DNA of 64,000 bases from NCBI RefSeq assembly GCF_900176005.1, contig NZ_LT838272.1, forward strand, positions 2,127,587 to 2,191,586, given 5' to 3'. Positions 10,909 to 29,827 of this stretch are shown one piece after another; positions within the stretch are counted from its first letter, which is position 1, and each line of letters opens with the position of its first letter. The position numbers and the translations under genes were made by a program. This DNA comes from Thermanaeromonas toyohensis ToBE. Its GTDB lineage: Bacteria; Bacillota; DSM-521; Neomoorellales; Neomoorellaceae. The notes below the pieces were generated by a model. That model did not search any database and was not told the DNA's origin. It saw nothing but the letters and a program-made list of their open reading frames with translations.

Positions 10909-12711
10909 TTACTTTTGAGTTACCCCATAATGCCAATCGGCTCCACCATTGTTGTCCCATGTCCCTGCATTATTGACAAAGCAAAAATCAAATTTATATC
11001 TATCCGTAGGCATGGTAAGGGTAACTTCCCAGAAACCATCTGCTCTTTTACTCATAGCAACATCGTTAATAGTACCTGCTGCCCATCCATCAAACCCGTA
11101 ATGCAAAGTAATACTTCTGGTAGCCGGGTCGCTAGCCAGGAAACCTTTATAGTAAATCGTAACAGGCTGACCTTTTACTGGTGGATTAGGGAACATGTCT
11201 ACAGGAGTAATATAAGGACTGTAGCTGCGAGCAGTAATCGTGATGTGATAGTCTGCGCCTCCGTTATTATCCCAGTTAGTGCCATCTGTGAAGGCCATAT
11301 CGATTTGGGTAGCATTAGTCGGTACGCTTATAGTAACCTCCCATATACCATCACTGCGCTTAATCATCTTTTTATCCGCAATGGTTCCCGCTGCCCAATT
11401 GTTAATGCCCCAATGCATGATTACTTGAGCGCTATTTTTAAGGCTACCATTGTAGTAAATTGTAAGAGCCTTGCCCTGGGTTGCCTTCGCTGGATCCCAG
11501 TCTATAACCTTAAGGGGGTCGGGCTGGAAGGCATAGGTTACATACCGGTCCCTTACAATATCTAGCTGGTCAGCGATCTTACCGTAATATTTGGAAATGG
11601 CCAGGGTAACGTATTCTGCCATTGACCAGCCCAGCGGTGTCATAGATTTTGTAGGTGTACCTGGTGTATACCCTGCCGGTGCATTTAAATCCCAAACTTG
11701 TTCTGGGATCATATAACCACTGTTAGCAGCATTTCGCATGGCATCCAAATACGGGGTGGCATCGCCCCCGCTGGCAATAACATAATGGCCGCGTTCACCA
11801 GTAAAGATAGGCCACAGGCGACCAATACCTGCTCCATCATAGTTAGAGCCATCTGCATTTTCGCCGTACCCATCGTGCGGATAGCGGAACCAATAATCCC
11901 CTTTGCCGGGAATGGTCTGTTTAATAGCCCCATCGGTTTCTGCAAAGGATTGCTGGATATAAGGATCGTTATAAGGCTTTACTCCATGGCGCACTAACTC
12001 AGTAAAACTAGTATCCACAATGGAGCGCTCGTCCCAAGAGCCTCCCCCATTAGCTATGTTAATGGTATGGCCATCATTAGGGTCTCCCCAATCATCTATC
12101 CGTTCGAAGTACCACCCGTCACCTAAGGGGCCACTGGTGGTGAAAGTCCAGTTAGCTACAAGGCCTTGCAAATAATCAGCCCGTTCATAATACCGGTCGC
12201 GGTCAGCAGTATAACCATTAAGATCAGCGATTTTTCCAGCTGCCACCAGACCTGCCACTACAGCAGCGATGGTGGCAGGGGAATATCCTGCATTTTCCTC
12301 CCATCTCTCCTGGCCAGTGTAGGGTGCGTACTTGAGGAGATAATCCGCTGCTGGCTTGATTTCGTTTAGATAAAAAGTAGCATCAGTCTTACCCACTTTA
12401 TAAGCTAACATGATGGGGAAGGCCGTCTCATCGAGCTGTTGCCCAGTCCAGTAAGGTGTACCATCTACCCAGGAGTTTTGCGGGAAACTCCCGTCTGATT
12501 TTTGTTGTTTAGTGAATAACCATTCCACTGCTTCAGTAGGGGTAACTGTATCTCCTGCAGCTAGCAATGCGCTAGCTTTCTTATATAGATCCCGAGCCCA
12601 CACAAGATGATACCCGCCATTACTACTATCCCCTTGGGTGTCACCCCAGGGGTTACCAAGGCCAGCTACAATAGCGCCGCTAGCTTTATCTTTGCTAGCC
12701 CTTATTACCAT
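10909..12711 (-). CDS. GH15 glucoamylase, catalytic domain plus two CBM25-like modules (3' part of a frameshifted gene)
   Basis: 600 residues in a different frame from the upstream N-terminal half. Residues 1-380 are the (alpha/alpha)6 barrel of glycoside hydrolase family 15; the region IPEQVWDLNAP carries the likely catalytic Glu, and WARDLYK and GGGSWDERSIVDTSFTEL are further family blocks. Two tandem starch-binding modules of CBM25 type follow (about 400-495 and 505-600), both ending in WDNNGGADYH or WDNNGGADWH. The family releases glucose from starch. The reading frame begins at an internal ATG six bases after the stop of the first half, so this part alone has no signal peptide. Confidence 0.85.
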   Translation of the reverse strand: MVIRASKDKASGAIVAGLGNPWGDTQGDSSNGGYHLVWARDLYKKASALLAAGDTVTPTEAVEWLFTKQQKSDGSFPQNSWVDGTPYWTGQQLDETAFPIMLAYKVGKTDATFYLNEIKPAADYLLKYAPYTGQERWEENAGYSPATIAAVVAGLVAAGKIADLNGYTADRDRYYERADYLQGLVANWTFTTSGPLGDGWYFERIDDWGDPNDGHTINIANGGGSWDERSIVDTSFTELVRHGVKPYNDPYIQQSFAETDGAIKQTIPGKGDYWFRYPHDGYGENADGSNYDGAGIGRLWPIFTGERGHYVIASGGDATPYLDAMRNAANSGYMIPEQVWDLNAPAGYTPGTPTKSMTPLGWSMAEYVTLAISKYYGKIADQLDIVRDRYVTYAFQPDPLKVIDWDPAKATQGKALTIYYNGSLKNSAQVIMHWGINNWAAGTIADKKMIKRSDGIWEVTISVPTNATQIDMAFTDGTNWDNNGGADYHITITARSYSPYITPVDMFPNPPVKGQPVTIYYKGFLASDPATRSITLHYGFDGWAAGTINDVAMSKRADGFWEVTLTMPTDRYKFDFCFVNNAGTWDNNGGADWHYGVTQK

Positions 12712-12716
12712 AGCCG

Positions 12717-13718
12717 CTATACATAGTACTGCTGATCAGCTGTACCTCCAAGGGAATCGAGTGAATTACACCAAGTATTCCATTCTTGAATGTAAGTAGA
12801 CTTTAGGGTAGCAAAATCAGATCCCAAGGTACCTATAGTTGCATTTTGAGCGTCTGTAGCAGTGGCTCCAAAGCCTAATACTACTTTAAAAGATACTGAA
12901 GTAGCAGCTGGCTCCCCTAGATCAAGTAAAGCCATCTGGGCTACATTTCCATTAGTCGCGCTGTCATAGGTCCAATTCATAGTATAATCTGGAGCAGTGC
13001 CACCCTTAAGATCAGTCCAGCCATCGCTCACGCCGACAAAACCGTTCGACTGCATTCCACTCTGGAAGGGGATGGAAGTACCTAATACGGATGTCCTGCC
13101 GTTAGGATCGGAGGCTTGGAGGTATGTTTTCCCATTCACTACAACTGTTTGCCCTGTATCATTGTCTCCACTATTGGAAATAGTTGGATTATAAAGTACA
13201 TAAACAAGATAATCTCCCACTGTCCCCGTAAGGGCGGTAAAAGTTACCTCTTGAATTAGACTATCCCGTGTAGGATCGGTATAGATTATCTTCTCTATCT
13301 TATACTTGCCATCTTTATCGGTGTTGGTTACCTTCCAAATTAAAGCCCTGGGATCTACAAGGGTAACAACGTGGTCAGTATCTACTTTTTCTTCATCCAC
13401 CCACGTATGCGCTGCATCGCCCACCATGAACTGCAAGTCAGTAGTATTGGGTGTATCAGGCGTGGGCCAGAAAACTGCCCCTATAATTCCTTGAAACCCT
13501 GTAAAATACACTTTAGAAGTAGAATTATTAGCTGTACCAACAAAATAGTTAGTAGTCGGAGCCCACCATGATGGGTTACCAGGTGCTCCCGGGGCCTCGC
13601 CCGAAGTAAGAGCCCCAGCATAGCCAATAGTTGTAGATAATAGAATGAAAAATATACATAAAAGGCCTGCTAGCTTGGATAATCGCTTCTGTTTAATAGT
13701 GAAAATAGAGAAACCCAA
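12717..13718 (-). CDS. GH15 glucoamylase, signal peptide and N-terminal beta-sandwich domain (5' part of a frameshifted gene)
   Basis: 333 residues: a Sec signal peptide (KRLSKLAGLLCIFFILLSTTIGYAGA) and the super-beta-sandwich domain that precedes the catalytic barrel in bacterial glucoamylases (PSWWAPTTNYFVGTA, IIGAVFWPTPDTPNTTDLQF). It ends in TADQQYYV just where the family continues into the AAMVIRASKDK sequence found at the start of the next frame. A TTG start at 13718 is preceded by a GGAAGGAGG ribosome-binding site. A one-base loss or two-base gain near 12717 separates the halves; this is either a true mutation, a programmed shift or a sequencing error. Confidence 0.85.
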   Translation of the reverse strand: MGFSIFTIKQKRLSKLAGLLCIFFILLSTTIGYAGALTSGEAPGAPGNPSWWAPTTNYFVGTANNSTSKVYFTGFQGIIGAVFWPTPDTPNTTDLQFMVGDAAHTWVDEEKVDTDHVVTLVDPRALIWKVTNTDKDGKYKIEKIIYTDPTRDSLIQEVTFTALTGTVGDYLVYVLYNPTISNSGDNDTGQTVVVNGKTYLQASDPNGRTSVLGTSIPFQSGMQSNGFVGVSDGWTDLKGGTAPDYTMNWTYDSATNGNVAQMALLDLGEPAATSVSFKVVLGFGATATDAQNATIGTLGSDFATLKSTYIQEWNTWCNSLDSLGGTADQQYYV

Positions 13719-15875: not shown

Positions 15876-17558
15876 TTAAACCGCAGCCAGGTAAATAATT
15901 TGTTTAGAAACATTCAAAAAGGCCGCTACAACATCTGGATCATATAAGGTGCCAGCTCCTCGCTTCAATTCCTCTAAAGCCTCGTTAATAGTTAGGGCTC
16001 GGCGATACGGTCTGTTCGTTGTCATAGCATCAAAGCTATCGACCACTCGCAGAATCCTAGCGCCAAGAGGTATTAACTCACCTTTCCGCCTGAAGGGATA
16101 ACCCGAACCATCAAAATTCTCATGATGAGCGATAATTATAGGAGCACATTTTGCTAAAGGCGGTACACAGCGAACTATTTCAGCTCCCCATATGGGGTGC
16201 TGCTTAAAAATAGAACGTTCTTCTTCGCTTAAAGGAGTTGCCTTGTTTAAAAGCTCTCGCTCTATCTCTATCTTACCTATATCATGGAGAAAGGCGCTGA
16301 GCTTTATAGTTTGGAGGTCTTCTTGGGGCAGACCTAGATACTCCCCGACAATGACCGCATACTTTGTAACCCGTTCTGAATGCCCACGAGTATATCGATC
16401 CTTGGCATGAATCACACTTAGAAGGGTTTTTAGAGTATGGAGCAGGTCTTCATCGGTGCTGGTATGGGAATTACATAGCTCGTCGAGTACAGAAAAATAA
16501 ATTTCTGTTCTGTTTTTACGACCCAGTTTGGCACGGAAAAGTGCATCATCGGCACGGCTAATAAGCTCCTTAGGCGTGTTGGCGTGAACAGGGTAAGTAG
16601 CAATGCCAAGGGATAAAGTAACCTTTTGGGCAGGCTGATATTCTTTACCGAAGAAAGGATAATTTTCCACTTCCTTACGTATTTGTTCAGCCACAGCCAG
16701 CGCCTCTTGGCTGGAGTATCCGGGTAAAATTATGGCAAACTCTTCTCCGCCATAACGCACAGCTACGGCTCCGGGAGGACTTTTACGGCATATTATCTCA
16801 CCAATTTTCTTTAAAGCCTCGTCCCCTTGAAGGTGCCCCAAAGCGTCATTGTACGTTTTAAAGTAGTCAACATCGGCAAAAATCAAAGAGAGGTTGGCAT
16901 TTTCCTTTATAGCCCAAGCAAACAGTTCCTCTAACACCTGGTAAAAATAACGTTTATTCCATAACCCTGTAAGGTCGTCTTTATTAGCCAGTTCTGCTAG
17001 TTTCTTTATGGTTTCCCTTTCTATATCGATAAAACCCCCGATAAGCCAGGCCGCGATAAACATAATTAGACTAAGGATTAAGTCAGCTTCAAAAGTCTTA
17101 TTGATCTCTGTAAAAAAAGCATGTAACAAGTCAATAACTAATATGGGGGCAAGGCATAAACAAGAAAATATGATACCCCATTTCCGCCCGTGATTTATAG
17201 CCGCGTATATTACTGGTACAAAGTAAAGTATTTTAAAAGAGCTTCCCTTTAGATCTAAAATAAACACAATAACTGCGGTAAAAATTAAAAGGAGAAAACT
17301 CAATATCACGCTAATAATATTTGGGGATTCGCTAGAAGTGAATACAGTTAAACTATTTTTGGCAAAATATAGCATTCCACTTAAAGCAAAAGTACCTAAA
17401 ATAATACCCAATATCGACCAATAACGATATATTATATATAGCCTGAAAGGTACTCCCAAGGTGCTCATTATAGCTATAGCCATAACGGTCAAGGCGCACA
17501 GGTGAAAGAACAGTATATATTCCGCTAGTCGCTTGCTACGTTCTTCCTTCCAGTCCAT
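15876..17558 (-). CDS. membrane-bound GGDEF / HD-GYP dual-domain protein
   Basis: 560 residues. Residues 10-175 contain five or six membrane helices with no recognised sensor family. A GGDEF domain follows (DDLTGLWNKRYF near 193; active-site motif YGGEEFAIILPG, that is GGEEF, so probably active as diguanylate cyclase). The C-terminal 180 residues are an HD-GYP domain (HDIGK and HHENFDGSGYP). The protein could both make and destroy c-di-GMP in response to a membrane signal. It lies downstream of the agr-like locus, beyond that locus's terminator. Confidence 0.9.
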   Translation of the reverse strand: MDWKEERSKRLAEYILFFHLCALTVMAIAIMSTLGVPFRLYIIYRYWSILGIILGTFALSGMLYFAKNSLTVFTSSESPNIISVILSFLLLIFTAVIVFILDLKGSSFKILYFVPVIYAAINHGRKWGIIFSCLCLAPILVIDLLHAFFTEINKTFEADLILSLIMFIAAWLIGGFIDIERETIKKLAELANKDDLTGLWNKRYFYQVLEELFAWAIKENANLSLIFADVDYFKTYNDALGHLQGDEALKKIGEIICRKSPPGAVAVRYGGEEFAIILPGYSSQEALAVAEQIRKEVENYPFFGKEYQPAQKVTLSLGIATYPVHANTPKELISRADDALFRAKLGRKNRTEIYFSVLDELCNSHTSTDEDLLHTLKTLLSVIHAKDRYTRGHSERVTKYAVIVGEYLGLPQEDLQTIKLSAFLHDIGKIEIERELLNKATPLSEEERSIFKQHPIWGAEIVRCVPPLAKCAPIIIAHHENFDGSGYPFRRKGELIPLGARILRVVDSFDAMTTNRPYRRALTINEALEELKRGAGTLYDPDVVAAFLNVSKQIIYLAAV

Positions 17559-17580: not shown

Positions 17581-17608
17581 TCTAGAGAGGTGATCCCACC
17601 TCTCTAGA
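17581..17608 (-). terminator. terminator of the agr-like operon
   Basis: An 11-bp perfect stem, TCTAGAGAGGT / ACCTCTCTAGA, with a 6-nt loop lies 9 nt after the agrD stop codon on the minus strand and is followed by AAAATTTTT. Confidence 0.75.
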
Positions 17609-17616
17609 CTCTCAAT

Positions 17617-17748
17617 TTACTTTCTTAACATTCGTGGTACTTCAGGCTCATAGGCTAGATAGTAGCACGCTGAAGCAGCATTTATGTAGGCCAAAAAAGT
17701 GGCCGCAAAGGCAAGTGCCGCCAGTAACAGCACGGTTAAACGCCTCAT
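17617..17748 (-). CDS. agrD: AgrD-like cyclic autoinducer peptide precursor (43 aa)
   Basis: Read by hand. A 43-residue peptide: charged start MRR, hydrophobic amphipathic stretch (residues 4-26), then ACYYLAYEPEVPRMLRK. The spacing from the Cys at residue 28 to EPEVP is the same as in Staphylococcus aureus AgrD (C-D-F-I-M-D-EPEVP), so the likely product is a five-residue thiolactone ring, Cys-Tyr-Tyr-Leu-Ala, cut before Tyr-Glu-Pro. Its ATG overlaps the stop codon of agrB (ATGA), so the two are translationally coupled. Confidence 0.85.
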   Translation of the reverse strand: MRRLTVLLLAALAFAATFLAYINAASACYYLAYEPEVPRMLRK

Positions 17749-18353
17749 CCCCATCTCACCTCCTTATTGTAAAGGATACTGGCAAGAAAAATTATAGCGC
17801 CCTGCCAGGCCAGGCCTACAGCCCCGGCCAGGGCCAGGGAAGGCCACCGACTACTAATAAGAAGCAAAAGGAGGGGAACTACTATAGAAACTCCCACGGC
17901 GGTTCTGCGTAACCTGCGCCGTATAACAGGTGAATTTATCGGCTTGGTAGGACTCGTTACAGGGGCCTGCCAGAAGCTGGCAGCTAAACTTAACAGGCCA
18001 CTAAAAAGGATCGCAAACGCTATGTAGGGCTTATCAAGCGAATATCCTGTTATCCCGCGGCTTAGAAACCCCATAATACTGAAGATTACCGCGGTAAAAG
18101 ATAAGCACTTAACCGGTGAACTTAGATGTATTCCTCCACCAGGAAGCCTCAATAAGCTGGCCGAAATTAGAGCTGCCAAGGTCTCGGCCGGAGCCCCCAC
18201 CAGGTAACCCGCGAGGGCTACAGCCAGTAGCCCGATGGCTCCCAGGAAAATCAACTCCAAACCATACGCTAAGACTTCTTCCTGTGCCTTTGTGGTTTTT
18301 AGTTCCGTGCTCAAATACCTGGCCAAGCTGTGGGCCGCTTTATTGATACTCAT
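17745..18353 (-). CDS. agrB: AgrB-like peptide-processing membrane protease
   Basis: 202 residues with several membrane helices. The AgrB active-site block RLPGGGIHLSSPVKC is present with His76 and Cys83 seven residues apart, the same spacing as the catalytic His77/Cys84 of the staphylococcal enzyme. AgrB cleaves AgrD and closes the thiolactone ring at the membrane. The AgrD gene overlaps its end by 4 nt. Confidence 0.9.
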   Translation of the reverse strand: MSINKAAHSLARYLSTELKTTKAQEEVLAYGLELIFLGAIGLLAVALAGYLVGAPAETLAALISASLLRLPGGGIHLSSPVKCLSFTAVIFSIMGFLSRGITGYSLDKPYIAFAILFSGLLSLAASFWQAPVTSPTKPINSPVIRRRLRRTAVGVSIVVPLLLLLISSRWPSLALAGAVGLAWQGAIIFLASILYNKEVRWG

Positions 18354-18356: not shown

Positions 18357-18824
18357 TTAAACGCCTGGCTCCTTTTTAAGCCGCTTATTATGGATTTTGG
18401 TAGCCAATGTTGCTACCAGCAAGAGCAGTAACACATTAGGCCAGCCTGACAGCGCCCTCAGCCAGATATTTCCGTAAATCTCCTCAAACGTTAGTCCCGA
18501 AGCCCAGACAAAGAGCGGGAGAAATACCGTATCCGCTATGACCACAGTGACTAATGCTGCCAATCCACTTCTTATAGCTAGGGCTAAACTGCAGGAGGTG
18601 GCTTTTCTAAAGACCACTATAGTAAATAAAAAGTTTAGTAAAGTATGAATGCCAAAAGATATAGGAAGCCAACGTATCAAGTAAAAGGTTACACCAAAAA
18701 GAACACCAACAGGTAAGATGGAACGCCACGGGAAACCCAGACCGGCAACGGAGTACATAAGGGCTGCTATTCCGATAGCCTCAGGCAACCCCTGCAACAG
18801 CCAAACTACAAACGGGATTTTCAT
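18357..18824 (-). CDS. multi-pass membrane protein of the agr-like locus, possible receptor without kinase
   Basis: 155 residues, almost entirely hydrophobic, with about five membrane helices and a basic C-terminal tail (KIHNKRLKKE). The RWLPISFGIHTLLNF stretch and overall layout recall the membrane sensor half of AgrC-like histidine kinases, but no dimerisation or ATPase domain follows. It ends 3 nt before agrB, so it belongs to the same operon. I do not recognise it with confidence; receptor, peptide exporter or accessory factor are all open. Confidence 0.6.
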   Translation of the reverse strand: MKIPFVVWLLQGLPEAIGIAALMYSVAGLGFPWRSILPVGVLFGVTFYLIRWLPISFGIHTLLNFLFTIVVFRKATSCSLALAIRSGLAALVTVVIADTVFLPLFVWASGLTFEEIYGNIWLRALSGWPNVLLLLLVATLATKIHNKRLKKEPGV

Positions 18825-19080: not shown

Positions 19081-20436
19081 TTAGCTCGCCTTATCCCGCA
19101 GCATAATGACGCTCAAAGTGCGCAAGATTATGCGCAGGTCAGTAAGGAGGGAAGCGCTCTTGCCATACATCAGATCATACCTTAGCTTGTCCTCTGGCGG
19201 GGTGCTATACCTTCCTTCCACCTGGGCTAAGCCCGTAATGCCTGCTGGGAGATGATGCCGCAGGTGGTAGCCCGGTATCTCTTTTTTAAGCTGCTCTACA
19301 AAATAAGGCCTCTCCGGCCGTGGCCCCACAAAACTCATCTCCCCTTTAAGCACGTTCCAGAGCTGGGGAAGCTCATCAATCCGGGTAGCCCGTAAGAATC
19401 GCCCCACTCTGGTAAGCCGGGGGTCATCTGGGGTGGCTAAGGTGGGCCCTGTCTCTTCCTCCGCTCCTGGAATCATAGTCCTAAGCTTAATAAGGCGGAA
19501 CACCCGTCCACCTTTACCCACCCTCTCCTGCATATAAAACACAGGCCAGTGGGGGTTTTCCAGTTTTAAAGCTAGGGCCGCCAAAAGCATTACCGGCAGC
19601 GCTGGCCCAAGCAAAAGTAACCCCATCACTATATCCAGTAACCTCTTCCACCCTAAAGCGGCCTCCTCCTGTATCCTAGGAATCCTAAAGACCGGGATGC
19701 CGTCGATCTGTTCCAGGGAAGCACCAGCGAGGAAGATATCCTCTAGATCCGGTATGAGAAAAATGGCTAGATCTTCTTCCACAGCTTTTTTAAGAATCTT
19801 AGCTCTCTCTTCCCGGGGTAAACCTGAACATAGGAGAACCCCCTTGGGCCCTGCATGTTTAAGGCTTGCAACTAGCTCGGCATAGGTACCCAGCCAAGGG
19901 ATGTCGGGTTGCCCCTCCCCCCCTTTATCAAGGGTAACATCCGTTACTACTCCCGCCACCTGGAAAAGGTACGGCTCCTGGCTTTGCAAAAGCTTAGCCC
20001 GCATCAACGCCTCCTCTTTAGGCCCCACCACTAAAAGGGTAAGGGGACCTTGCCTGGCCAGGGACCAGGCCCACACAAAGCGCCGCCACAAAATAAGGAA
20101 AAACAAATGAAAAGGAGCAGCCAAGAGGAAAATAGACCGGGGAAAAGCGTAGGTCTGGAAGAGGTAAGAAGTACTTAAACCTATCGGCAAAAGAAGGGTT
20201 ACTACACATACCAAGGAAGAGAAAACTTCCGCCCAGCGCCGCCTCTGGCTGGAGAACAAACCATAACTGTGAAGGAGAATAAGGGCTGCTAAAGAAAGAT
20301 AGGGTGCAACCGCAAGATAGGCTTTAAAATTGGCCTCCGGTAGGCTCCCATGGAAACGGATAAGAAAGGCTGCTATGTACCCGCAATGCACACAGGCTAA
20401 ATCGCCTAAAACTTTGCCCACCTTAGTCCAGCGCAT
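19081..20436 (-). CDS. polyprenyl-phosphate sugar-1-phosphate transferase (initiating glycosyltransferase, WbaP/WsaP-like)
   Basis: 451 residues. Four to five membrane helices (about 10-130), a soluble Rossmann-like region (about 135-250), another helix, and the C-terminal bacterial sugar transferase domain with FRLIKLRTM, ATRIDELPQLWNVLKGEMSFVGPRPERP. These enzymes transfer a sugar phosphate to undecaprenyl phosphate and so start a polysaccharide or S-layer glycan chain. It is preceded by motif copy 2 and stands alone between the agr locus and the epimerase gene. Confidence 0.92.
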   Translation of the reverse strand: MRWTKVGKVLGDLACVHCGYIAAFLIRFHGSLPEANFKAYLAVAPYLSLAALILLHSYGLFSSQRRRWAEVFSSLVCVVTLLLPIGLSTSYLFQTYAFPRSIFLLAAPFHLFFLILWRRFVWAWSLARQGPLTLLVVGPKEEALMRAKLLQSQEPYLFQVAGVVTDVTLDKGGEGQPDIPWLGTYAELVASLKHAGPKGVLLCSGLPREERAKILKKAVEEDLAIFLIPDLEDIFLAGASLEQIDGIPVFRIPRIQEEAALGWKRLLDIVMGLLLLGPALPVMLLAALALKLENPHWPVFYMQERVGKGGRVFRLIKLRTMIPGAEEETGPTLATPDDPRLTRVGRFLRATRIDELPQLWNVLKGEMSFVGPRPERPYFVEQLKKEIPGYHLRHHLPAGITGLAQVEGRYSTPPEDKLRYDLMYGKSASLLTDLRIILRTLSVIMLRDKAS

Positions 20437-20480
20437 CTAAGATTAGCCTCCATTTTACACCCGTTCCCTCATCCCCTTTC

Positions 20481-20509
20481 CTTTTTCGACATACAGGTTA
20501 ATTTTTCCT
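20481..20509 (-). promoter_or_regulatory. upstream motif copy 2 (Spo0A-box-like)
   Basis: On the minus strand the core reads AACCTGTATGTCGAAA and differs from copy 3 at one base over 29. It contains TGTCGAA and lies about 45 nt upstream of the sugar transferase start; a TGTAAAAT -10-like element lies between. Confidence 0.6.
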
Positions 20510-20591
20510 CCTTTATGAGGCCCTTTTCTAGAAGAGATAGCAGTTGTAGATGGCCTCCATCTTGGCAAGGAATTAAGCGAACTACTTGGCA

Positions 20592-21551
20592 TTAGCGGAT
20601 TTCCGGTGTTAAACTTTGCACAGTGTGTTTAAGCCCTTCCTCAAGCTTTACTTCTGCCCTCCAGCCGAGCTCCTGCCAGGCTTTGCTGCAGTCTAAATAT
20701 ATTCTTTTTAGCTCTCCAGCGCGCGTAGGCCCATATATTGCCTCGCCTTGATAACCTATAACCTTCTTAAGTAGGTGGAAAAGCTCATTTACCGACGTAC
20801 CTTTACCCGTACCTATGTTATAGGCCAGGCCATCTATACCCTTTCCTAAGGAAGGATAGGACTTTTTAGCGAGTTTTTCCATAGCCAAGAGATTTGCCTT
20901 TACCACATCCTGCACGTAGACATAGTCGCGTAACTGTTCTCCATCTCCATAGATAGTAGGAGTTTCACCTTTAAGCATCTTGTTGCCAAATATGGCCACC
21001 ACTCCTGCTTCACCGTGAGGGTCCTGCCGGGGACCGTACACATTCCCATAGCGCAAGGTAATATAGGGTAGCCCGTGTACCTGAGCAAAACAGTAAAGAT
21101 AGTATTCTGAAGCCAGCTTGCTAACCCCGTAAGGGGAGAGCGGCCCCTTGGGGTACCCTTCCTTTACGGGGAGTTCGGTCGGCTCTCCATACACCACCCC
21201 GCCTGAGGAAGCGAAAATAAACCCCTTCACACCATAACGCACACAGTTCTTAAGAAGGTTTAAAAGCCCTACTATGTTTACCCTGGCATCCTCATGAGGG
21301 TCAGCTACCGAACGCCTCACATCTATTTGGGCTGCGTGATGATTCACCAGCTCAGGCTTTTCCTTTCTGAAGACCTCCTCCATCTCTGGAGAGCATATAT
21401 CCATAAAGTAGAAGCGCGCTGCCGGGTTAATATTTTCTTTACGGCCAGAAGTTAAATTATCCACCACTATAACCTCATGACCTTGGGTAATTAAAGCATC
21501 TACTATGTGGGAACCTATAAATCCAGCACCACCGGTGACTAAAATCCGCAA
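20592..21551 (-). CDS. NAD-dependent sugar-nucleotide epimerase, GalE-like
   Basis: 319 residues of the extended SDR family: NAD-binding TGGAGFIGSHIVDAL at residues 7-21, SSGGVVYGE near 115 and the YGVSK active site near 144, then LRYGNVYGPRQDPHGEAGVV. This pattern fits UDP-glucose / UDP-N-acetylglucosamine 4-epimerases. It would supply UDP-galactose or a related sugar to the polysaccharide cluster. Preceded by motif copy 3. Confidence 0.88.
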   Translation of the reverse strand: MRILVTGGAGFIGSHIVDALITQGHEVIVVDNLTSGRKENINPAARFYFMDICSPEMEEVFRKEKPELVNHHAAQIDVRRSVADPHEDARVNIVGLLNLLKNCVRYGVKGFIFASSGGVVYGEPTELPVKEGYPKGPLSPYGVSKLASEYYLYCFAQVHGLPYITLRYGNVYGPRQDPHGEAGVVAIFGNKMLKGETPTIYGDGEQLRDYVYVQDVVKANLLAMEKLAKKSYPSLGKGIDGLAYNIGTGKGTSVNELFHLLKKVIGYQGEAIYGPTRAGELKRIYLDCSKAWQELGWRAEVKLEEGLKHTVQSLTPEIR

Positions 21552-21593
21552 AAACTATCCTTCCTTTCTTTACCCTTTCCTGCTACCTTACAT

Positions 21594-21623
21594 GCTTTTT
21601 CGACGTACAGGTTAATTTTTCCT
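21594..21623 (-). promoter_or_regulatory. upstream motif copy 3
   Basis: Core on the minus strand AACCTGTACGTCGAAA, near-identical to copy 2. The Spo0A-box heptamer is CGTCGAA here instead of TGTCGAA. It lies about 43 nt upstream of the epimerase start. Confidence 0.6.
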
Positions 21624-21650
21624 TCTTAGTGGCTTCTTTAAAGCACAACT

Positions 21651-22031
21651 TTAGCCATCTGCCTCAAGGAACTCGAGAAAACCCTCTAGTTCCACCTGAA
21701 GACGCCGAAAAAGTTCTGGCAAACTCTCCACAAGTGGAGCTATCTTCGCTGGAGAAAGATGGAATGCATATACGTTTCTCACAACATGGCGAAACCCTCT
21801 ATAGTCATCCAGTTCATCTCTTGTTGTCTTTGATATAACCGGAGGACGTATTAACTTAATCTCCGAAGCCATTTGCTGCAGCAAGGCCTGGTGCCAGTTT
21901 TCTCCCAATGGCTTGCTCTGGTCAACAGCATCGGCAATCATCTCAAAAATTTTTTCAATAGCAGTATAGAAGCTGTGCAAGTTGAGAGCTACACTATCCA
22001 GGTAGAAATCATCACCAGTCTTCTTCTTCAT
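21651..22031 (-). CDS. HepT-like toxin of an MNT/HepT module
   Basis: 126 mostly helical residues. YRGFRHVVRNVYAFHL carries an Arg-X4-6-His arrangement like that of HEPN/HepT ribonucleases. Its start overlaps the stop of the nucleotidyltransferase gene by 4 nt. In such pairs the nucleotidyltransferase AMPylates and neutralises the HEPN toxin. Confidence 0.75.
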   Translation of the reverse strand: MKKKTGDDFYLDSVALNLHSFYTAIEKIFEMIADAVDQSKPLGENWHQALLQQMASEIKLIRPPVISKTTRDELDDYRGFRHVVRNVYAFHLSPAKIAPLVESLPELFRRLQVELEGFLEFLEADG

Positions 22032-22402
22032 ACTTCAATCCCTTCACTTTCGATGCCCCTGCGTATGCGCTCCGGGCACTCCATGGCGTCTACCAGGTCC
22101 ACCTTAAACTCCGCGCTCAACCCGGTTACGGCTCCGACTGCCGCATAGAAACGTTCGTCTGGGATGCCCCACGCGGCGAGGTCAATATCCGATGACCGCT
22201 TGAACCTGGAACGGTCCGTAAGAGAACCAAATACAACAACTTTCCTCGCTCCAAACCGCTCCTTCAAGAGAGCCGCTGCCTCACCTGCCAGTTTCCAGGC
22301 CTTCTTATATCGCAACGTTAGATCATCATCGTCCCTGGCAAATGACAAAGGATATTTCTCCTTGTAATAATGAGCCCATTCCTCGGCCTTCATGCGTAAC
22401 AC
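22028..22402 (-). CDS. nucleotidyltransferase-domain antitoxin (MNT family)
   Basis: 124 residues. The minimal nucleotidyltransferase motif VFGSLTDRSRFKRSSDIDLA (GS...DxD) near residue 55 places it in the MNT/DNA-polymerase-beta-like family. Coupled by a 4-nt overlap to the HepT-like gene downstream. Confidence 0.85.
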   Translation of the reverse strand: MLRMKAEEWAHYYKEKYPLSFARDDDDLTLRYKKAWKLAGEAAALLKERFGARKVVVFGSLTDRSRFKRSSDIDLAAWGIPDERFYAAVGAVTGLSAEFKVDLVDAMECPERIRRGIESEGIEV

Positions 22403-22506
22403 CCTTCTTTTTGTTACCTGCCACTCACTTCCATTCTACCCGTCTGGCACACTCCCGGTCAAGGAATATATTCCTCACGATACGCAAGCGGATGGTCCTA
22501 GGTAGC

Positions 22507-23646
22507 TCATTTAAACAAGAGGTACCGACTGTAGATGGCCTCCATCTCAGTGAGGGCTTTTTCCAAGGAGTAATCTTTTATCTTCTCCCGGCCTGCTGCC
22601 CCAAAGCTTAAACGTAAACTTTCATCCCGTGCCAGCATCTCTAAATACCCTGCCAGCCCTTCCACATCCCCTAGCTCTACCAGGAAGCCCGTCCTGCCAT
22701 GCTCTATTAAATCCCTGTTGCCCCTCACGTTGCTCGCCACTACAGGTTTTCCCGCGGCCATGGCTTCCATAACGGCCCGGGGAAGCCCCTCGCGGCACGA
22801 AACCAGCACAAAGATATCTGTATCTTGTAACACTTTAGGTATGTCTTGCCGGAAGCCTAAAAAATAAACTCTAGGTATCCCCAGAGTTTGCACTTTATGC
22901 TCCAGCCTCTTTCTAAGCTTTCCCTCCCCCACAAGGCACAGGTGGACCCCTGTTATCGAGGAAGCTACTTTTTCCCACGCCTTTAATAAAAATGCATGGT
23001 TTTTAACCGGGGAAAACTCCGCTATGCAGGTTATAACTATTTCCTCTTGGCTTATCCCTAGCTCCTTCCTTAAAGCGCCGGATCCCGGGGGCCCCGTATA
23101 CTTTTCCAAATCTACCCCCACCCCGGGCACATAAAAAAGGTTTTTCCCCGGTTTAAAGCCCATCCTTCGGGCGACCTGGTAGTCTTCATCGTTTATCACT
23201 ATAAGCCCGTCCGTTAGCGGGGCCGCCAGGCGCTCCAGGGGATAATAAAGAAGCCAGTTTTTTAAAGGCGCACCATGGTAAAAGTGAAATCCATGGGCGG
23301 TATAAAGCACTGGGCCCTGGCCTTGGGCTCTGGCCAGGTACCTCCCTAGAAAAGCGGCCACGGGGGTATGGACATGGATAAGATCAAAGCGATAAACCTC
23401 AAACAGGCGGGATAATTCCTTAAAAGCGCGCCAATTTTTAAGGCTATAGGGTGAGCGGGAAAAGGGAATATCCCAACACCTTACCCCTATAGCCTCTACC
23501 TCCTCTTTTCTTCCCTCATCAGGGGAAGCTGCTACGTGTACTTCATAGCCTTTGTTTTGCAAAAGCTGCATGAATGGTATATGAAAAGAAGCCAGGTGGG
23601 TGTAGACTGTGGCTAAGAAAAGAACCCTACCTCGAAAGCCAGGCAA
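22507..23646 (-). CDS. glycosyltransferase family 4
   Basis: 379 residues with the two-Rossmann GT-B fold of GT4: N-terminal acceptor domain (VYTHLASFHIPFMQLLQNKG), donor-domain ITCIAEFSPVKNH and the CREGLPRAVMEAMAAGKPVVA block (E-X7-E retaining motif near residue 285). It adds a sugar, often from a UDP or GDP donor, to the growing glycan on the inner face of the membrane. Confidence 0.9.
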   Translation of the reverse strand: MPGFRGRVLFLATVYTHLASFHIPFMQLLQNKGYEVHVAASPDEGRKEEVEAIGVRCWDIPFSRSPYSLKNWRAFKELSRLFEVYRFDLIHVHTPVAAFLGRYLARAQGQGPVLYTAHGFHFYHGAPLKNWLLYYPLERLAAPLTDGLIVINDEDYQVARRMGFKPGKNLFYVPGVGVDLEKYTGPPGSGALRKELGISQEEIVITCIAEFSPVKNHAFLLKAWEKVASSITGVHLCLVGEGKLRKRLEHKVQTLGIPRVYFLGFRQDIPKVLQDTDIFVLVSCREGLPRAVMEAMAAGKPVVASNVRGNRDLIEHGRTGFLVELGDVEGLAGYLEMLARDESLRLSFGAAGREKIKDYSLEKALTEMEAIYSRYLLFK

Positions 23647-23712
23647 GTTTATTCCCTGCTTTCTCTTATAACCTTTTAACCCCTATACAAGGGGCACTTG
23701 GTCGGGTATAGC

Positions 23713-23991
23713 TTACTTGAAATATTGCTTCCAGTCCTTATAAGTCTTTTCGTTACGCCTGCTAACCGCGCCTATAAGAACTAGTTTTTCAGCGTCAAAT
23801 ATTTGGTAAAGGATGCGGATATCCCCGACTCGCAGCCTGTAATAATTCTTTTCCAAGCAGATGCATCCCGGCGGCCGAGGGTTTTCAGCCAATTCCTCTA
23901 AGGCACATCGGACCCTCTCACGTTCCTTGGGAGAGAGCCTTGCGTAGTCGTGGCGGAAGCGGTTAACATTCTTGGGCTTAACGCTATACAT
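23713..23991 (-). CDS. RelE/ParE-superfamily toxin
   Basis: 92 residues: NRFRHDYARLSPKERERVRCALEELAENP followed by YYRLRVGDIRILYQI, the RelE/ParE fold. Such toxins cut mRNA at the ribosome or poison gyrase. The gene overlaps the antitoxin gene end by 8 nt. Confidence 0.88.
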   Translation of the reverse strand: MYSVKPKNVNRFRHDYARLSPKERERVRCALEELAENPRPPGCICLEKNYYRLRVGDIRILYQIFDAEKLVLIGAVSRRNEKTYKDWKQYFK

Positions 23992-24268
23992 CCTTCTGCT
24001 CTTCGATTTCCCGCATTATCTCAAACACGTCTTTATCTTCAGGGTTGTCGGTGGGCTGCTCGAAGATCTCGCGGGCCAGCTTCATATCCTGCACGAGTTC
24101 ATAAGCTTCTAGCAGTTCTCTATAAGCCTCTGTGCTGAGCAGCACCCCCTCCACTTCGTTGTTTTTAAGTATCAACAGGGGCTTCTCCTTGCACTTGGCC
24201 AGGTATTTCCCCGGCGACCTGGACAGCGCGGTTGCGCTTACCAGGCTATCGAGGTCGAATTGCAGCAT
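23984..24268 (-). CDS. Phd/YefM-type antitoxin
   Basis: 94 residues: SPGKYLAKCKEKPLLILKNNEVEGVLLSTEAYREL is the Phd/YefM DNA-binding fold, followed by an acidic tail that would wrap the toxin. I choose the ATG at 24268 with AAAGGAGG 8 nt upstream; a GTG nine bases earlier overlaps that ribosome-binding site. Confidence 0.85.
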   Translation of the reverse strand: MLQFDLDSLVSATALSRSPGKYLAKCKEKPLLILKNNEVEGVLLSTEAYRELLEAYELVQDMKLAREIFEQPTDNPEDKDVFEIMREIEEQKDV

Positions 24269-24365
24269 GGGTTGCACCTCCTTTTAGGTTTATCATACGC
24301 AAAATAATACGTAAAATCAATGCAATATCCTGCTAAGCTATCCCCACTCTTTAGCCTGCCGCATC

Positions 24366-24490
24366 TGAAACAAGCGCGGCTCCTCGTTTCCTAGCTGCCG
24401 CGCCCGCATCAAAGCCTCGCTTGAGGCCCTACAACCAGAAGGGTAAGGGGACCCTGCTTTGCCAAGGGCCACGTCCACACAAGCCATCCC
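24366..24490 (-). pseudogene. remnant of the sugar-transferase gene
   Basis: This stretch aligns base by base with part of the sugar-transferase gene at about 19965-20085: both share GCCCGCATCAA, then AAGGGTAAGGGGACC and CCACACAA in the same order, with many substitutions and small indels. It has no open frame. It is a decayed partial duplicate lying in the gap between two toxin-antitoxin modules. Confidence 0.75.
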
Positions 24491-24558
24491 TCGCTCGGGC
24501 CTAGGTATCAAATATCACTGTTTACAAGTCCTAGCTTCGCTAGAAAGAAGACCGACAC

Positions 24559-25014
24559 TCAATGAAACTCCTCCAAATACTTCACGTATTTTTTCTTACC
24601 TGCGATGGCGCTGACAAGCTTTTCATCAGCCGTCCAATACTCGCACTCCTCACCCGTCTTCTCCGCCACCACTTCCGCAACAGCCAGGAAAGCCGCATCA
24701 TACAGCGTGGGTAGGTCGAGTTCGCAGCTTAACTTCCATGCTCGTTCGCCAATCTCTTCGTCGTTCACGTACTCCACGCCCGGGAACTGCCGAAATTCCA
24801 TCCAAAGGCCGTCTGCTTCCTCTAAAGATAGCTCGTCCCGCCTGTATTTTTTCCGCAGTACACTTCCCACCTCGGCCCATGCAAACGCAGGAAGAACCAC
24901 AAGTGCATCTTCTCTGATTATCCTATCTATAAGCAAAGTAGCTTTATCACTTCCCTGTTCTTCAATAAGGAACTTGATGACCACGGAAGTATCCAGGCAC
25001 ATATACTTACTCAT
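24559..25014 (-). CDS. PIN-domain toxin (VapC-like)
   Basis: 151 residues of PIN-domain type: N-terminal CLDTSVVIKFL with Asp8, a conserved Glu in FAWAEVGSVLRKK, Asp in LPTLYDAAFLAVAE and the late Asp in EYWTADEKLV. VapC toxins cleave tRNA or rRNA. Overlaps the antitoxin gene by 8 nt. Confidence 0.88.
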   Translation of the reverse strand: MSKYMCLDTSVVIKFLIEEQGSDKATLLIDRIIREDALVVLPAFAWAEVGSVLRKKYRRDELSLEEADGLWMEFRQFPGVEYVNDEEIGERAWKLSCELDLPTLYDAAFLAVAEVVAEKTGEECEYWTADEKLVSAIAGKKKYVKYLEEFH

Positions 25015-25318
25015 TTCGCCCCTGCCCTTCTCTTAACCTGCGGAGAAGCAAAACAGAATCTTCCTGTCTAGTAGCCTTACCAGCCATCTTGGTCCTCAGC
25101 GAGAGTACTCTGTCGTAAATCTCCCGTCTCCTTTCTCTAAGCGAAACACGCCCGTCCGCATGCCACAGCTTTTCAAAAGTTTCGGGATCGACCAAGTAAG
25201 CCACCGGTCTGGAACGCTGGAGGACAACGATAGGTTCCCTGGTCTTGGCCAGTTCAGAAAGAACTTCCCGGATGCCGGTTCTTATCTCAGTTACGTTTAC
25301 CATCCGCACGGTCATCAA
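25007..25318 (-). CDS. Phd-family antitoxin of the PIN toxin
   Basis: 103 residues: VNVTEIRTGIREVLSELAKTREPIVVLQRSRPVAYLVDPETFEKL is a Phd/prevent-host-death fold. The start could be the internal ATG at MVNVTEI (25303). Encoded just upstream of, and overlapping, the PIN toxin. Confidence 0.85.
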   Translation of the reverse strand: MMTVRMVNVTEIRTGIREVLSELAKTREPIVVLQRSRPVAYLVDPETFEKLWHADGRVSLRERRREIYDRVLSLRTKMAGKATRQEDSVLLLRRLREGQGRNE

Positions 25319-25377
25319 CTCCCAATCGTAATGTTAATGATACGTTTAATGATACAGTTTGTTATAATTTTAACATA

Positions 25378-26766
25378 TCAGTTTTCTAGCGTCAAATATT
25401 CCCACTCAAACGCTCCTACAGCAGGAAACTTAAGAAGCGCCTCCTGCATAATCGCACAAATCTCCTTTAGCCCCCCTATTGTCTTAGCCTCGCATCTGGC
25501 TACCAGGACCGGCTGGGTATTGGAGGCCCGCACCAGGCCCCAGCCACTAGGGAATATAACCCTTGCGCCATCCACATCTATAACCTCGTAGTCCCTTTCT
25601 TTAAAATGCTTAACTATCCCCGCCACAACTTCTGCTTTTTGCTCATCCGGGCAGGGTATGCGGGTCTCGGGGGTGGCGTAATACTTGGGCACATCTTCCA
25701 AGAGGCAAGATAAGGGCCTTTCTTCCCGCGATAGAAGTCGAAGGAGCCTCGCTGCCGCATAAAGGGCGTCATCGTACCCGTAATACTCATCAGCAAAGAA
25801 GAAATGACCGGACATTTCACCGGTGAAGAGGGCGCCTATCTCCCGCATCTTGGCCTTGATTAAGGAGTGGCCGGTTTTATAGAAAAAGGGCCGGCCTCCT
25901 AACCTTTCTATCTCTTCTACCAGTGCTTGCGAGCATTTGACTTCTACAATAGCCGGAGCCCCGGGATGACGGGGCAGTATCTCCCGCCAGAAAAGGATCT
26001 GCAGCATATCTCCCCAGAGGATGTTTCCTTTCTCATCTATTACCCCCAGCCGGTCGCCGTCCCCGTCCAGGGCCAGGCCTACGTCGGCCCTCTCGGCAAG
26101 GACCACCTCTTTTAAATCTTTTAGGTTGGCGGGGATGGTGGGGTCGGGATGGTGGTGGGGGTAGGTGCTGTCAGGCTCGCAGTATAGGGGTATCACCTCG
26201 CAGCCCAGGGCTTTAAGGAGCTCTACCGCCAGGGGCCCGGCTACTCCGTTGCCTGCATCCACTGCTACCTTAAGGGGCCTAGCCAGCTTTATCCTCTCTT
26301 TTATAGAGCTTATGTAGGCTTCCCTGGGGTCTTTCTCCTCTAGATAGCCTTCTCCCCCCACAAATTCTTTTTGTTCCAGGAGGCGGCGTATTTTTTGGAT
26401 TTCCTCTCCATGTATGGTTGTTCCCCCGGAGGATATTTTAAACCCGTTATCTTCCGGAGGGTTATGGCTGGCGGTGATCATGACCCCGGCTGTCAAGCCG
26501 TAATAGTGATGGGAAAAATAAAAGACAGGGGTGGGGTTCTCCCCTATATCCACCACCCGGCAGCCACCGGCTATAAGACCTTCTATTAAGCTTTGGCGGA
26601 GAAGGGGGGAGTGCTTCCGGTTGTCCCGGGCTACTATTACCTCCTTTTCTCCCCGGCTTTTAAAGTAAGTGGCCAGCGCCCGGCCCAAAAGTTTTACTTC
26701 TTCTGGGGGAAAGTCTACCTCAGCCTTGCCCCTTATATCATAAGCGCGGAAAACTAAAGGATTCAT
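25378..26766 (-). CDS. manB: phosphomannomutase/phosphoglucomutase
   Basis: 462 residues of the alpha-D-phosphohexomutase family: FRAYDIRGKAEVDFP at the N-terminus, active-site phosphoserine in TASHNPPEDNG near residue 99, metal-binding DGDGDR near 241 and the C-terminal phosphate-binding RASNTQPVLVARCEA. It converts mannose-6-phosphate (or glucose-6-phosphate) to the 1-phosphate, feeding ManC encoded 7 nt upstream. Confidence 0.92.
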   Translation of the reverse strand: MNPLVFRAYDIRGKAEVDFPPEEVKLLGRALATYFKSRGEKEVIVARDNRKHSPLLRQSLIEGLIAGGCRVVDIGENPTPVFYFSHHYYGLTAGVMITASHNPPEDNGFKISSGGTTIHGEEIQKIRRLLEQKEFVGGEGYLEEKDPREAYISSIKERIKLARPLKVAVDAGNGVAGPLAVELLKALGCEVIPLYCEPDSTYPHHHPDPTIPANLKDLKEVVLAERADVGLALDGDGDRLGVIDEKGNILWGDMLQILFWREILPRHPGAPAIVEVKCSQALVEEIERLGGRPFFYKTGHSLIKAKMREIGALFTGEMSGHFFFADEYYGYDDALYAAARLLRLLSREERPLSCLLEDVPKYYATPETRIPCPDEQKAEVVAGIVKHFKERDYEVIDVDGARVIFPSGWGLVRASNTQPVLVARCEAKTIGGLKEICAIMQEALLKFPAVGAFEWEYLTLEN

Positions 26767-26773
26767 CTTTTTT

Positions 26774-28270
26774 CTACCCTACCCTTCCGTATTCATCTTG
26801 CAGCCGCACTACGTCATCTAGTTCGGGTGTGGATACCTCTAGGAAAGTAATATCGGTAATGGCCGAAACTCTATGTATAGTGCCCGGTAAAATATCTACA
26901 ATTAATCCGGGGTAAATGGACATCTTCTCTTCCCCTAGTTCTAAAATACCCTCACCAGAGAGGAACATCATGGTTTCTTGCTTCAGGCGGTGGTACTGAC
27001 GGCTTAAAGAATGCCCTCCCCGGACGTATATCACCTTGCCTACATATTTTTCAGTGACGCTCCACCATACCTCCCGCCCCCAGGGTTTTTCTTGTATATG
27101 GCAATGGGGGAAAGCTCCGCCTCTCAAGAAGGCCAGCCCGAAAGCCTGGGGCCTGCCCCCTTCCCCGCTGCTTGCGGTTTTGGAGGTTAAATACTGTTCT
27201 AGACCCCGGCGTTTAAGCTCTAAAATAACTTCTTTAAGCTGGGGGGCGCGGGATTTATCGGCTACCAGTAACACATCTTCGGTGTCAATGATGAGGGTGT
27301 TTTTTACCCCGAAGGCGACAACTAGTTTGTCTTCTTTCTGGGCCCGTATGACGCTACCTTCGGTGTCCATAAGCACAGCCTGGGCTTGCAAGAGGTTGCC
27401 TTGCCCGTCAAGCTCGCACACCCTTTCCAGGGCCGTCCAGGTCCCCAGGTCGTCCCAGGCAAAATCCCCGGGGATCACCAAAACTCTATCTGCCTTCTCC
27501 ATCACGCCGTAATCGATGGATATGCGGGGGAGCCCAGGGAACTCTTGGGCCAGTATCTCGGCTTCCCTCTCGCTTCCCAGGTGAGCTTCTATACGCTTTA
27601 AACCCTGGAAAAGCTCGGGCAGGTAGCGCTCGATGGCTTTAAGTATCACCTTTACCTTCCAGATAAACATCCCGCTGTTCCACAGGTATTGATTGGTGCT
27701 TAAAAAGAGAAGGGCTCTTTCGAGGTTCGGCTTTTCGGTGAATTCCTTTGCCCAGAACACAGGCTTGCCCCATTCTCCCGGGTAGGGCTCGCCCAGGCGG
27801 ATATAGCCGTAACCTGTCTCCGGCCTGGTGGGGCGGATGCCTACAGTGATTAAAAAGTCTGTGCTACCGGCCAGCTCTTTGGCCACGTGCAGGGTATCGG
27901 CGAAACGATCTTCATCGGGTATAAAGTGGTCTGCTGGCAGCACTATCATGACCTGCTCGGAGTCCTTATGGGCAAGGTAGAGGGCCGCCAGGCCAATGCA
28001 AGGCGCTGTATCCCGGCCCACAGGCTCTAGGATAATGTTTTTGGGATTTATCTCGGGTACCTGCTGCCTTACGGCATCTACCAGTTCCTCGCTGGTAACT
28101 ATGTACAGCTCTTCCCAAGGTACCAGCCTTAGCGCCCGCCGAACTGCTTGCTGCAGGAGGGTACCTTCCCCCACTACTTGTAGGAACTGCTTGGGGTAGT
28201 CAGTACGGCTGTAAGGCCAGAACCTCTCCCCCCGGCCACCGGCCATGATCACTACTGAGGCTTTGTGCAA
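26774..28270 (-). CDS. manC: mannose-1-phosphate guanylyltransferase / mannose-6-phosphate isomerase
   Basis: 498 residues. The nucleotidyltransferase domain begins VVIMAGGRGERFWPYSR and holds VLPADHFIPDE and FTEKPN; the C-terminal 110 residues form a type II mannose-6-phosphate isomerase cupin (VRGGHSLSRQYHRLKQE). It makes GDP-mannose, the precursor of GDP-D-rhamnose through Gmd and Rmd in this cluster. Confidence 0.93.
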   Translation of the reverse strand: MHKASVVIMAGGRGERFWPYSRTDYPKQFLQVVGEGTLLQQAVRRALRLVPWEELYIVTSEELVDAVRQQVPEINPKNIILEPVGRDTAPCIGLAALYLAHKDSEQVMIVLPADHFIPDEDRFADTLHVAKELAGSTDFLITVGIRPTRPETGYGYIRLGEPYPGEWGKPVFWAKEFTEKPNLERALLFLSTNQYLWNSGMFIWKVKVILKAIERYLPELFQGLKRIEAHLGSEREAEILAQEFPGLPRISIDYGVMEKADRVLVIPGDFAWDDLGTWTALERVCELDGQGNLLQAQAVLMDTEGSVIRAQKEDKLVVAFGVKNTLIIDTEDVLLVADKSRAPQLKEVILELKRRGLEQYLTSKTASSGEGGRPQAFGLAFLRGGAFPHCHIQEKPWGREVWWSVTEKYVGKVIYVRGGHSLSRQYHRLKQETMMFLSGEGILELGEEKMSIYPGLIVDILPGTIHRVSAITDITFLEVSTPELDDVVRLQDEYGRVG

Positions 28271-28705
28271 AGGAGATCCTCCCCTTTAGACTTTAGGCTT
28301 AATTTAAGTCTATCTATTAAGAAAATATCGGCGTAAACTTTACTACTCTGCCTGTTACTACAAAAATAAAGCCCGCCCTGATAGGCAAAAGAAAGGGCTA
28401 GCCCCTGGGTTTTGAGTACTCCCAAGGGGGCCAGGGCCAGCCAAAAGGCTGTCTGCATTGCACCCAGAGCGTCTGGCGAGGAAGGCACGAGCAGCCCAGG
28501 TTTTGACGTCTGCAACGATCAAAATCTTTTAAAACTGTGAAGTATCTTGCCCAGGTCGACGCGACCAAGATATAGCAGGTAAAACCTTCCCCTAATGTCT
28601 GGAGAGATTCCCGCTTCGACCTTTTTTAAGCATTTTTACTCCGACGAGTATTGATAAACCCTTGCACACTACGACGCAAATTCCTACATACAAGGTTTTT
28701 CCCCC
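28271..28705 (-). other. 435-bp gap with no supported gene
   Basis: Between manC and the next glycosyltransferase gene. An open frame at 28252-28515 overlaps the manC start, has no ribosome-binding site and no recognisable sequence. I see no repeat, promoter or RNA I can support. Confidence 0.5.
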
Positions 28706-29815
28706 TCAGTCAGAACTGAGAACAAGGTCCTTCGCCTTGACGCAAGAGTGGTAGACTCGTTCCGCTACAATATCCCAATTCCACTCCTCCATTGCTTTTT
28801 GGTAGCCTGCCGTGCCCATCTCACGTGCGAGCGCCTCATCTTCGAGCAACCTTATGCAAGCTTCGGCCAGGGCATCCGGTTCAGAAGGTGGCACGAGGTA
28901 TCCAGTGTTCCCGTGAATAACCTGCTCTCCGAGACCCCCTGTCTTGGTAGCGACGACGGGGAGGCCAAAAGAATACGCTATAGGGATAACACCAGATTGG
29001 GTAGCTTCCTTATAAGGAAGCACTACTAGACTCGCTCGCTCAAAAAAGCCAGCAACCTCCTCCTCTGCAATCCACCTGTTTACTACTTCTATGTTGTTCA
29101 AACCTTCCAGGAGTTGCGCGTAGGGCTTTAATTCGCCGCTTCCCGCTATAATCAACCTTGCCTCCGGCACCTTTTCTTTTATTTTAGGAAAAGCCCGCAG
29201 GAGTACATCCAGCCCTTTATACGGAATAATACGCCCGAAAAATAAGATTGTTTTTTCCCTAGAAGAGGGCTTGACCCCCTTTTTCCACCGCAAGTAATAA
29301 GAAAACACACCATGATGGATAATATCTATCTTGTTGCGCGGTATCCCCTTACCTACTAGATTATTCTCAAATACCCTACTCAAGATTATTAGTCGCGTGG
29401 CCTGGCGAATACTCGCAATTTGCACAAGTCGTCTGAAAAGGTCCCTTTCCCCAAGGTGCAAAACCGGGTCATGGAGTGTAACAACCTTTGGGATGCGAGG
29501 GAAAAAACTGTTAATTAAAGGTGTCCACAAATGGATCATTGGGTAGTAAAGGACTTCCGGCTTCAGTTGCTTAATTTTTAAGGCTATCCTCCACCAGCGG
29601 TAGAAAAATAAAGTAGAAAGGAAGAACTCTCCCATATTCCTGTACGTTGGGACGGTAATAACCTTAATCCCTGACTCTTCCCATGCATTTAGATTTTCTA
29701 CCTGCTCTGAAATGAAGGCAGTTAAATCACACTTCTTGGCAAGGACTCTTGCTACCTCGAGGCTGTATACTGCACCTCCGCCAAGCCTGCCTAGGTAGAT
29801 TAGCGCAACTCTCAC
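28706..29815 (-). CDS. glycosyltransferase family 4
   Basis: 369 residues, GT-B fold: LGRLGGGAVYSLEVARVLAKK at the N-terminus, donor-domain ILFFGRIIPYKGLDVLLRAFP and GVIPIAYSFGLPVVATKTGGLGEQV. The usual EGFG is replaced by KEATQSG, as in several GT4 subgroups. Probably extends the glycan on the cytoplasmic side. It lies 12 nt after the next GT4 gene. Confidence 0.9.
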   Translation of the reverse strand: MRVALIYLGRLGGGAVYSLEVARVLAKKCDLTAFISEQVENLNAWEESGIKVITVPTYRNMGEFFLSTLFFYRWWRIALKIKQLKPEVLYYPMIHLWTPLINSFFPRIPKVVTLHDPVLHLGERDLFRRLVQIASIRQATRLIILSRVFENNLVGKGIPRNKIDIIHHGVFSYYLRWKKGVKPSSREKTILFFGRIIPYKGLDVLLRAFPKIKEKVPEARLIIAGSGELKPYAQLLEGLNNIEVVNRWIAEEEVAGFFERASLVVLPYKEATQSGVIPIAYSFGLPVVATKTGGLGEQVIHGNTGYLVPPSEPDALAEACIRLLEDEALAREMGTAGYQKAMEEWNWDIVAERVYHSCVKAKDLVLSSD

Positions 29816-29827
29816 GGCTCGTTTACC

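Follow-up and report, generated by a model that had tools for sequence, protein, structure and literature searches.

The signal-making pair and the enzyme beside it

The window, as we call the whole 64,000-nucleotide stretch of Thermanaeromonas toyohensis ToBE DNA that was analysed, carries on its reverse strand a compact cassette in which the gene for a small membrane protein, here called X, is followed by agrB, agrD and a gene for a membrane-bound GGDEF/HD-GYP protein. The processing protease AgrB (202 aa; 17745-18353, minus strand) matches PF04647 with an E-value of 4.3e-31 and 108 bits against a curated cut-off of 23, and its His76 and Cys83 (codons 18126-18128 and 18105-18107, minus strand), seven residues apart, are invariant in all 13 aligned AgrBs. 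The agrD frame runs for 45 codons from its first ATG (17754) and for 43 from its second (17748), at which the start codon and the agrB stop share ATGA; the second start is common to orthologues in three genomes (G013, G014 and G016) and to a T. toyohensis paralogue (L066), and we place agrD at 17617-17748 (minus strand). With a hydrophobic N-terminus, a Cys, variable ring residues and an E/Q-P-x-x-P tail, AgrD meets the pattern of NCBIfam TIGR04223 and scores 36.1 bits against a curated cut-off of 19. The staphylococcal family PF05931 matches only weakly (E 0.054), but the alignment spans 25 positions on each side (20-44 to 17-41), so the spacing from Cys to EPEVP agrees with that of staphylococcal AgrD. 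Because differences between close orthologues of agrD fall mainly on third codon positions (9, 7 and 19 sites in codon positions 1, 2 and 3 for the window against L067), and because homologues occupy the equivalent position at most of some 55 other loci, the frame is not a product of chance. A search of genome contigs for relatives of the narrow AgrB set returned four records, from Moorella stamsii, M. sulfitireducens and two Clostridia MAGs; no relatives of the window AgrB were found in the phage records searched.

The sequence-only reading had described a complete AgrBD pair with a 43-residue AgrD, a Cys28, an ATGA overlap, the His76/Cys83 pair of AgrB and a Cys-to-EPEVP distance like that of S. 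aureus. Each of these claims held, the last on the weak alignment just given. Its statement that agrD is short enough to be missed by gene callers needs correction, since an NCBI model exists and modern annotation probably finds such peptides, and it was incomplete in stopping at agrBD and leaving out the flanking X and GGDEF/HD-GYP genes. The two genes are genuine, intact and conserved; taken alone, the pair is a further member of the known AgrB and AgrD families. Cutting and cyclization of AgrD by AgrB are established for these families and inferred here from sequence.

The earlier claim of an exact ring, Cys28-Tyr-Tyr-Leu-Ala32 (17653-17667, minus strand), is supported by comparison but not proven. 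AgrD sequences were gathered from 59 places, of which 57 fit a common pattern, and the nucleophile was read as the residue five places before a conserved Tyr/His/Phe-(Q/E)-P. Among the 57, which include two AgrDs (L147 and L152) with one additional ring residue each, the nucleophile position holds Cys in 46, Ser in 8 and Thr in 1. Positions +1 to +4 are highly variable; position +5 is Tyr in 49, His in 7 and Phe in 1, followed by Gln (50) or Glu (7) and then Pro. The cut site of S. aureus AgrD lies at the same boundary between variable and conserved residues, and the five-membered thiolactone has been described as by far the commoner form (PMC10301443); the Cys-Tyr-Tyr-Leu-Ala ring is thus well supported, although the mature five-residue ring remains a prediction inferred from sequence. 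Comparison of the AgrD core across related loci, which the sequence-only reading had proposed as a check, finds it conserved and favours a five-membered ring. Given L147 and L152, six-residue rings elsewhere are possible and cannot be excluded. The Ser-type AgrDs, one of which is encoded in the T. toyohensis genome (L064), are predicted to yield lactones, and in an AgrD-like frame at another locus of that genome (L065, 3365-3487) Thr or another residue replaces the Cys.

Between agrD and the enzyme gene, a scan, fold z scores and alignment identify a 12-bp stem-loop with a T-rich tail (17581-17608, minus strand) that resembles a terminator or attenuator. Its fold z score is -3.3 in the window and -2.0 to -4.3 in L067-L069, and it is kept in close orthologues (four Moorella-type sequences in the alignment). 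It could uncouple the expression of agrD from that of the enzyme gene; an attenuator role is possible.

The 560-aa enzyme (15876-17558, minus strand) is a predicted cyclase/phosphodiesterase of c-di-GMP that consists of an N-terminal membrane domain, N6 (residues 1-186; 17001-17558), a GGDEF domain (residues 191-350; 16509-16988; PF00990, E 1.1e-41) with the motif GGEEF, and an HD-GYP domain (residues 381-543; 15930-16418; PF13487, E 2e-41) with the motifs HDIGK (HDxGK) and HHENFDGSGYP. All catalytic motifs are present, and enzymatic activity is predicted from them. No Pfam family matches N6 above its cut-off, DUF4118 being marginal (E 0.006), and the N6 model is of low confidence (pLDDT mostly about 54-87). 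Of 47 agrD-linked HD-GYP outputs, 45 have an intact HHExxDGxGYP, whereas the GGDEF half carries a canonical GG[DE]EF in only 29, a variant such as GSDEF or GNDEF in 13 and no match to the pattern in 5, which argues that phosphodiesterase activity is the constant function. With 8 c-di-GMP-I riboswitches and 17 HD-GYP-type matches in its genome, T. toyohensis does use c-di-GMP.

Exopolysaccharide-type genes (a sugar transferase, an epimerase and several glycosyltransferases; 19081-37839, minus strand) lie just upstream of the cassette and are a possible c-di-GMP-linked target. We rejected this operon as a conserved partner, since the cassette of the window is preceded by glycosyltransferase genes and those of the Moorella orthologues are not. 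Elsewhere on the minus strand, the window contains a Cobalamin riboswitch (58966-59158), a borderline group II intron fragment (32429-32668; 49.5 bits against a cut-off of 49) and a glucoamylase/glucodextranase-type gene that is apparently split (10909-13718). The parts of the latter, one in 12717-13718 with a Glucodextran_N domain and the other a C-terminal stretch of 600 aa in 10909-12711, are 5 bp apart in different frames; a frameshift, a sequencing error or a real split are all possible.

Gene order and co-inheritance in the phylum

A profile search with N6 in 398 genomes of the phylum found 98 places in 78 genomes, 66 of them within 4 kb of AgrB (55 of 87 once the 11 places from which the profile was built are excluded). 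Nearly all of these N6 domains are encoded on the same strand as AgrB, which lies 180-310 bp upstream, just the room needed for agrD; gene-by-gene inspection of 61 loci indeed placed agrD in this gap in almost all of them. X, AgrB and N6 occur together in at least 55 places in 45 genomes, and the order X-AgrB-N6 is kept in 49 of 51 loci, X usually being encoded directly before AgrB and often overlapping it. These co-occurrence counts, for which an AgrB remnant of one genome (G008) was added, are probably lower bounds. AgrB was not found within 4 kb of N6 at 32 of the 98 places, in some cases only because the set of AgrBs compared was incomplete or the contig ends.

T. toyohensis itself has four agr loci. 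Two (the window and L066) share the c-di-GMP layout, and the other two (L064 and L065) have X with a kinase gene; at L065 a 426-aa transposase-like gene (3820-5100), apparently a separating insertion, lies between X/kinase and agrB. The window locus lacks an AgrC histidine kinase, and no SPOB_a match was found within the window; three LytTR regulators are encoded in the genome, none of them near the four agr loci.

Several observations suggest that X and N6 are partners. The distances of X and those of N6 correlate at 0.91 across 45 cassettes. The partial correlation is 0.60 for X-N6 when AgrB is held constant, higher than for AgrB-N6 (0.46) or X-AgrB (0.35). X-N6 pairs also exist without a nearby agrB (L191, L193, where the genes overlap by 4 bp, and L194), a second X-N6 pair adjoins the main one at L171 and L180, and X, agrD and N6 are present without agrB in genome G003. 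The Moorella-group genome G008 has lost X and retains only an 89-aa remnant of agrB and a truncated agrD (L072, 10418-12559), yet its GGDEF/HD-GYP gene is intact; the enzyme can thus outlive the signal. In genome G309, a 51-aa frame between X and an N6 kinase looks like a fusion of the first part of AgrB with the last part of AgrD (L190, 3494-3649).

The output attached to N6 has changed repeatedly from HD-GYP to histidine kinase or back: on a tree of 58 N6 rows, parsimony requires at least 7 switches, 5 of which are forced by well-supported branches. The kinases on N6 carry PAS, GAF or receiver domains. This repeated swapping marks N6 as a portable input module.

One alternative is that the pair is an ordinary AgrBD whose true receptor is encoded elsewhere, the c-di-GMP gene being merely a neighbour with an input of its own. 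In its favour, the stem-loop with its T-rich tail parts agrD from the enzyme gene, the genome does encode LytTR regulators, and some agrBD loci, such as C. difficile agr1, lack a linked agrCA (PMC3901668). Against it stand the same-order linkage throughout the phylum and the co-inheritance, together with the make-up of the four agr loci in the genome, of which two share this layout while the other two have X and a kinase instead. We consider this explanation very unlikely. Another alternative places the enzyme upstream, sensing something else and controlling production or export of the peptide through c-di-GMP. Only the shared operon direction and the tight order speak for it; histidine kinases replace the enzyme at the same place, suggesting a receiver, and no c-di-GMP riboswitch was found in the window. 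We consider this possibility remote.

X as the proposed half of a split receptor

X (155 aa; 18357-18824, minus strand), encoded directly upstream of agrB and almost touching it, is a five-helix membrane protein without a kinase. It is collinear with residues 10-149 of L081, a 460-aa SPOB_a/HATPase kinase (E 5.5e-15), and also with L062 (E 8.7e-9). In four loci, two of them from T. toyohensis (L064 and L065) and two others (L080 and L083), a distinct kinase gene comes after X and encodes two helices, SPOB_a and HATPase; in L081 and L062 X and kinase are fused, X making up residues of about 1-160 and the kinase about 170-455. The separate X and kinase proteins of L064, L080 and L083, and more weakly those of L065, align end to end with the fused forms, and among PDB sequences L081 matches the S. 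aureus AgrC kinase module best. On these grounds, we read X as the sensor half of an AgrC-like receptor that is split in two. Homology of X to this half is shown; a sensor role rests on the fusion with AgrC-like kinases, and binding of the autoinducing peptide by X is inferred, there being no binding data. X is part of long fused frames in 22 of 150 listed matches, and those examined are AgrC-like kinases without N6.

X nevertheless resists assignment to a known family. Neither Pfam nor NCBIfam offers a convincing family for X or for any of 57 relatives. The AlphaFold model (pLDDT 92.6) is a confident helical membrane bundle, but its fold has no match in the PDB at E<=0.001. The sole sequence match, to a viral rhodopsin (E 0.003), is taken as generic similarity among membrane helices. 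Membership in the canonical AgrC sensor family was rejected, as no match was obtained with the N-terminus of Listeria AgrC or with a LytTR-type agr locus, and kinship with N6 was rejected as well (hhalign probability 1.3 between the profiles).

Since their profiles are unrelated, either X or N6 could be the binding subunit. A rival reading makes N6 itself the peptide receptor and X only an accessory of AgrB or of peptide release, or an immunity-like partner. N6 is a multi-helix membrane domain that occupies the agrC position of agrBDCA, following agrD as AgrC does in S. aureus, and the usual place of X just before AgrB, often with an overlap, would suit an accessory. However, X can act as an input, as the fusions to AgrC-like kinases without N6 indicate, and X-N6 pairs persist without agrB. 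We regard this rival as unlikely.

We favour, with a probability of roughly 0.68, a split agr receptor that converts an autoinducing peptide into c-di-GMP turnover, X, agrB, agrD and the GGDEF/HD-GYP gene forming a single signalling unit. AgrB would cut AgrD and close the five-residue thiolactone, Cys-Tyr-Tyr-Leu-Ala with a short tail, which would then be released. At the membrane, the peptide would be sensed by X, acting together with N6, and N6 would relay the signal directly to the attached enzyme, taking the place of autophosphorylation and AgrA. The turnover of c-di-GMP would change as a result, probably through the HD-GYP phosphodiesterase half. What the sequences show is that the genes are present, how they are related, ordered and inherited together, and that outputs have been exchanged on N6; peptide release, binding to X, contact between X and N6, control of the enzyme and the direction of the c-di-GMP change are inferred, with no experiment behind them. 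The lack of experiment weighs against a split receptor, as do the lack of similarity of X to Listeria AgrC or to a solved fold, the N6 places without AgrB nearby, the surviving enzyme of G008 and the stem-loop, which may uncouple expression. The c-di-GMP-I riboswitches of the genome and the absence of LytTR regulators near its agr loci count in favour.

An agr variant with a proposed c-di-GMP output

The locus shares with agrBDCA of S. aureus and with agrBD/agrCA of clostridia the His/Cys pair of AgrB, a short AgrD with a Cys and four residues before Q/E-P-x-x-P, and a membrane sensor encoded in the same locus. It differs in having neither an AgrC kinase nor AgrA; X stands alone, and the output is GGDEF/HD-GYP. 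The agr loci with X and a separate kinase (L064, L065, L080 and L083) and the fused X-kinases (L081 and L062) have the same X family, with AgrB and AgrD adjoining in most, but have a whole or split AgrC-like kinase module as output rather than N6-GGDEF/HD-GYP. Bifunctional membrane-bound GGDEF/HD-GYP enzymes, in turn, match the protein of the window in domain architecture and catalytic motifs, but the latter has the N6 domain and the linkage to AgrBD. A connection between agr and c-di-GMP has a precedent in Clostridioides difficile R20291, where agr alters transcripts of c-di-GMP enzymes via AgrA (PMC3754575); that link is transcriptional and AgrA-dependent, whereas here the enzyme itself stands in the receptor position. 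The open-access literature searched yielded no account of AgrBD in linkage with a GGDEF/HD-GYP receptor; an earlier mention is not excluded, as subscription papers and preprints were mostly outside the search.

The locus is a conserved agr variant in which the receptor appears to be split and the output to be c-di-GMP turnover, peptide sensing and control of the enzyme being inferred. A bolder reading, towards which we lean by a narrow margin, is that of a widespread and undescribed form of peptide quorum sensing, in which X and N6 would make up a receptor with c-di-GMP phosphodiesterase/cyclase output and histidine kinases would have been substituted time and again; it would amount to an agr system that does without two-component signalling. 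Peptide quorum sensing in Gram-positive bacteria usually proceeds from peptide to kinase to transcription factor, or from peptide to cytoplasmic receptor. X is a family of membrane proteins without a database entry that recurs beside AgrB across the phylum. If our reading is true, a secreted cyclic peptide would act directly on c-di-GMP, and a single operon would unite two major signalling systems; it would also supply a naturally modular receptor and hint at a way in which spore-forming anaerobes (acetogens and their kin) could link cell density with a surface-bound or motile life.
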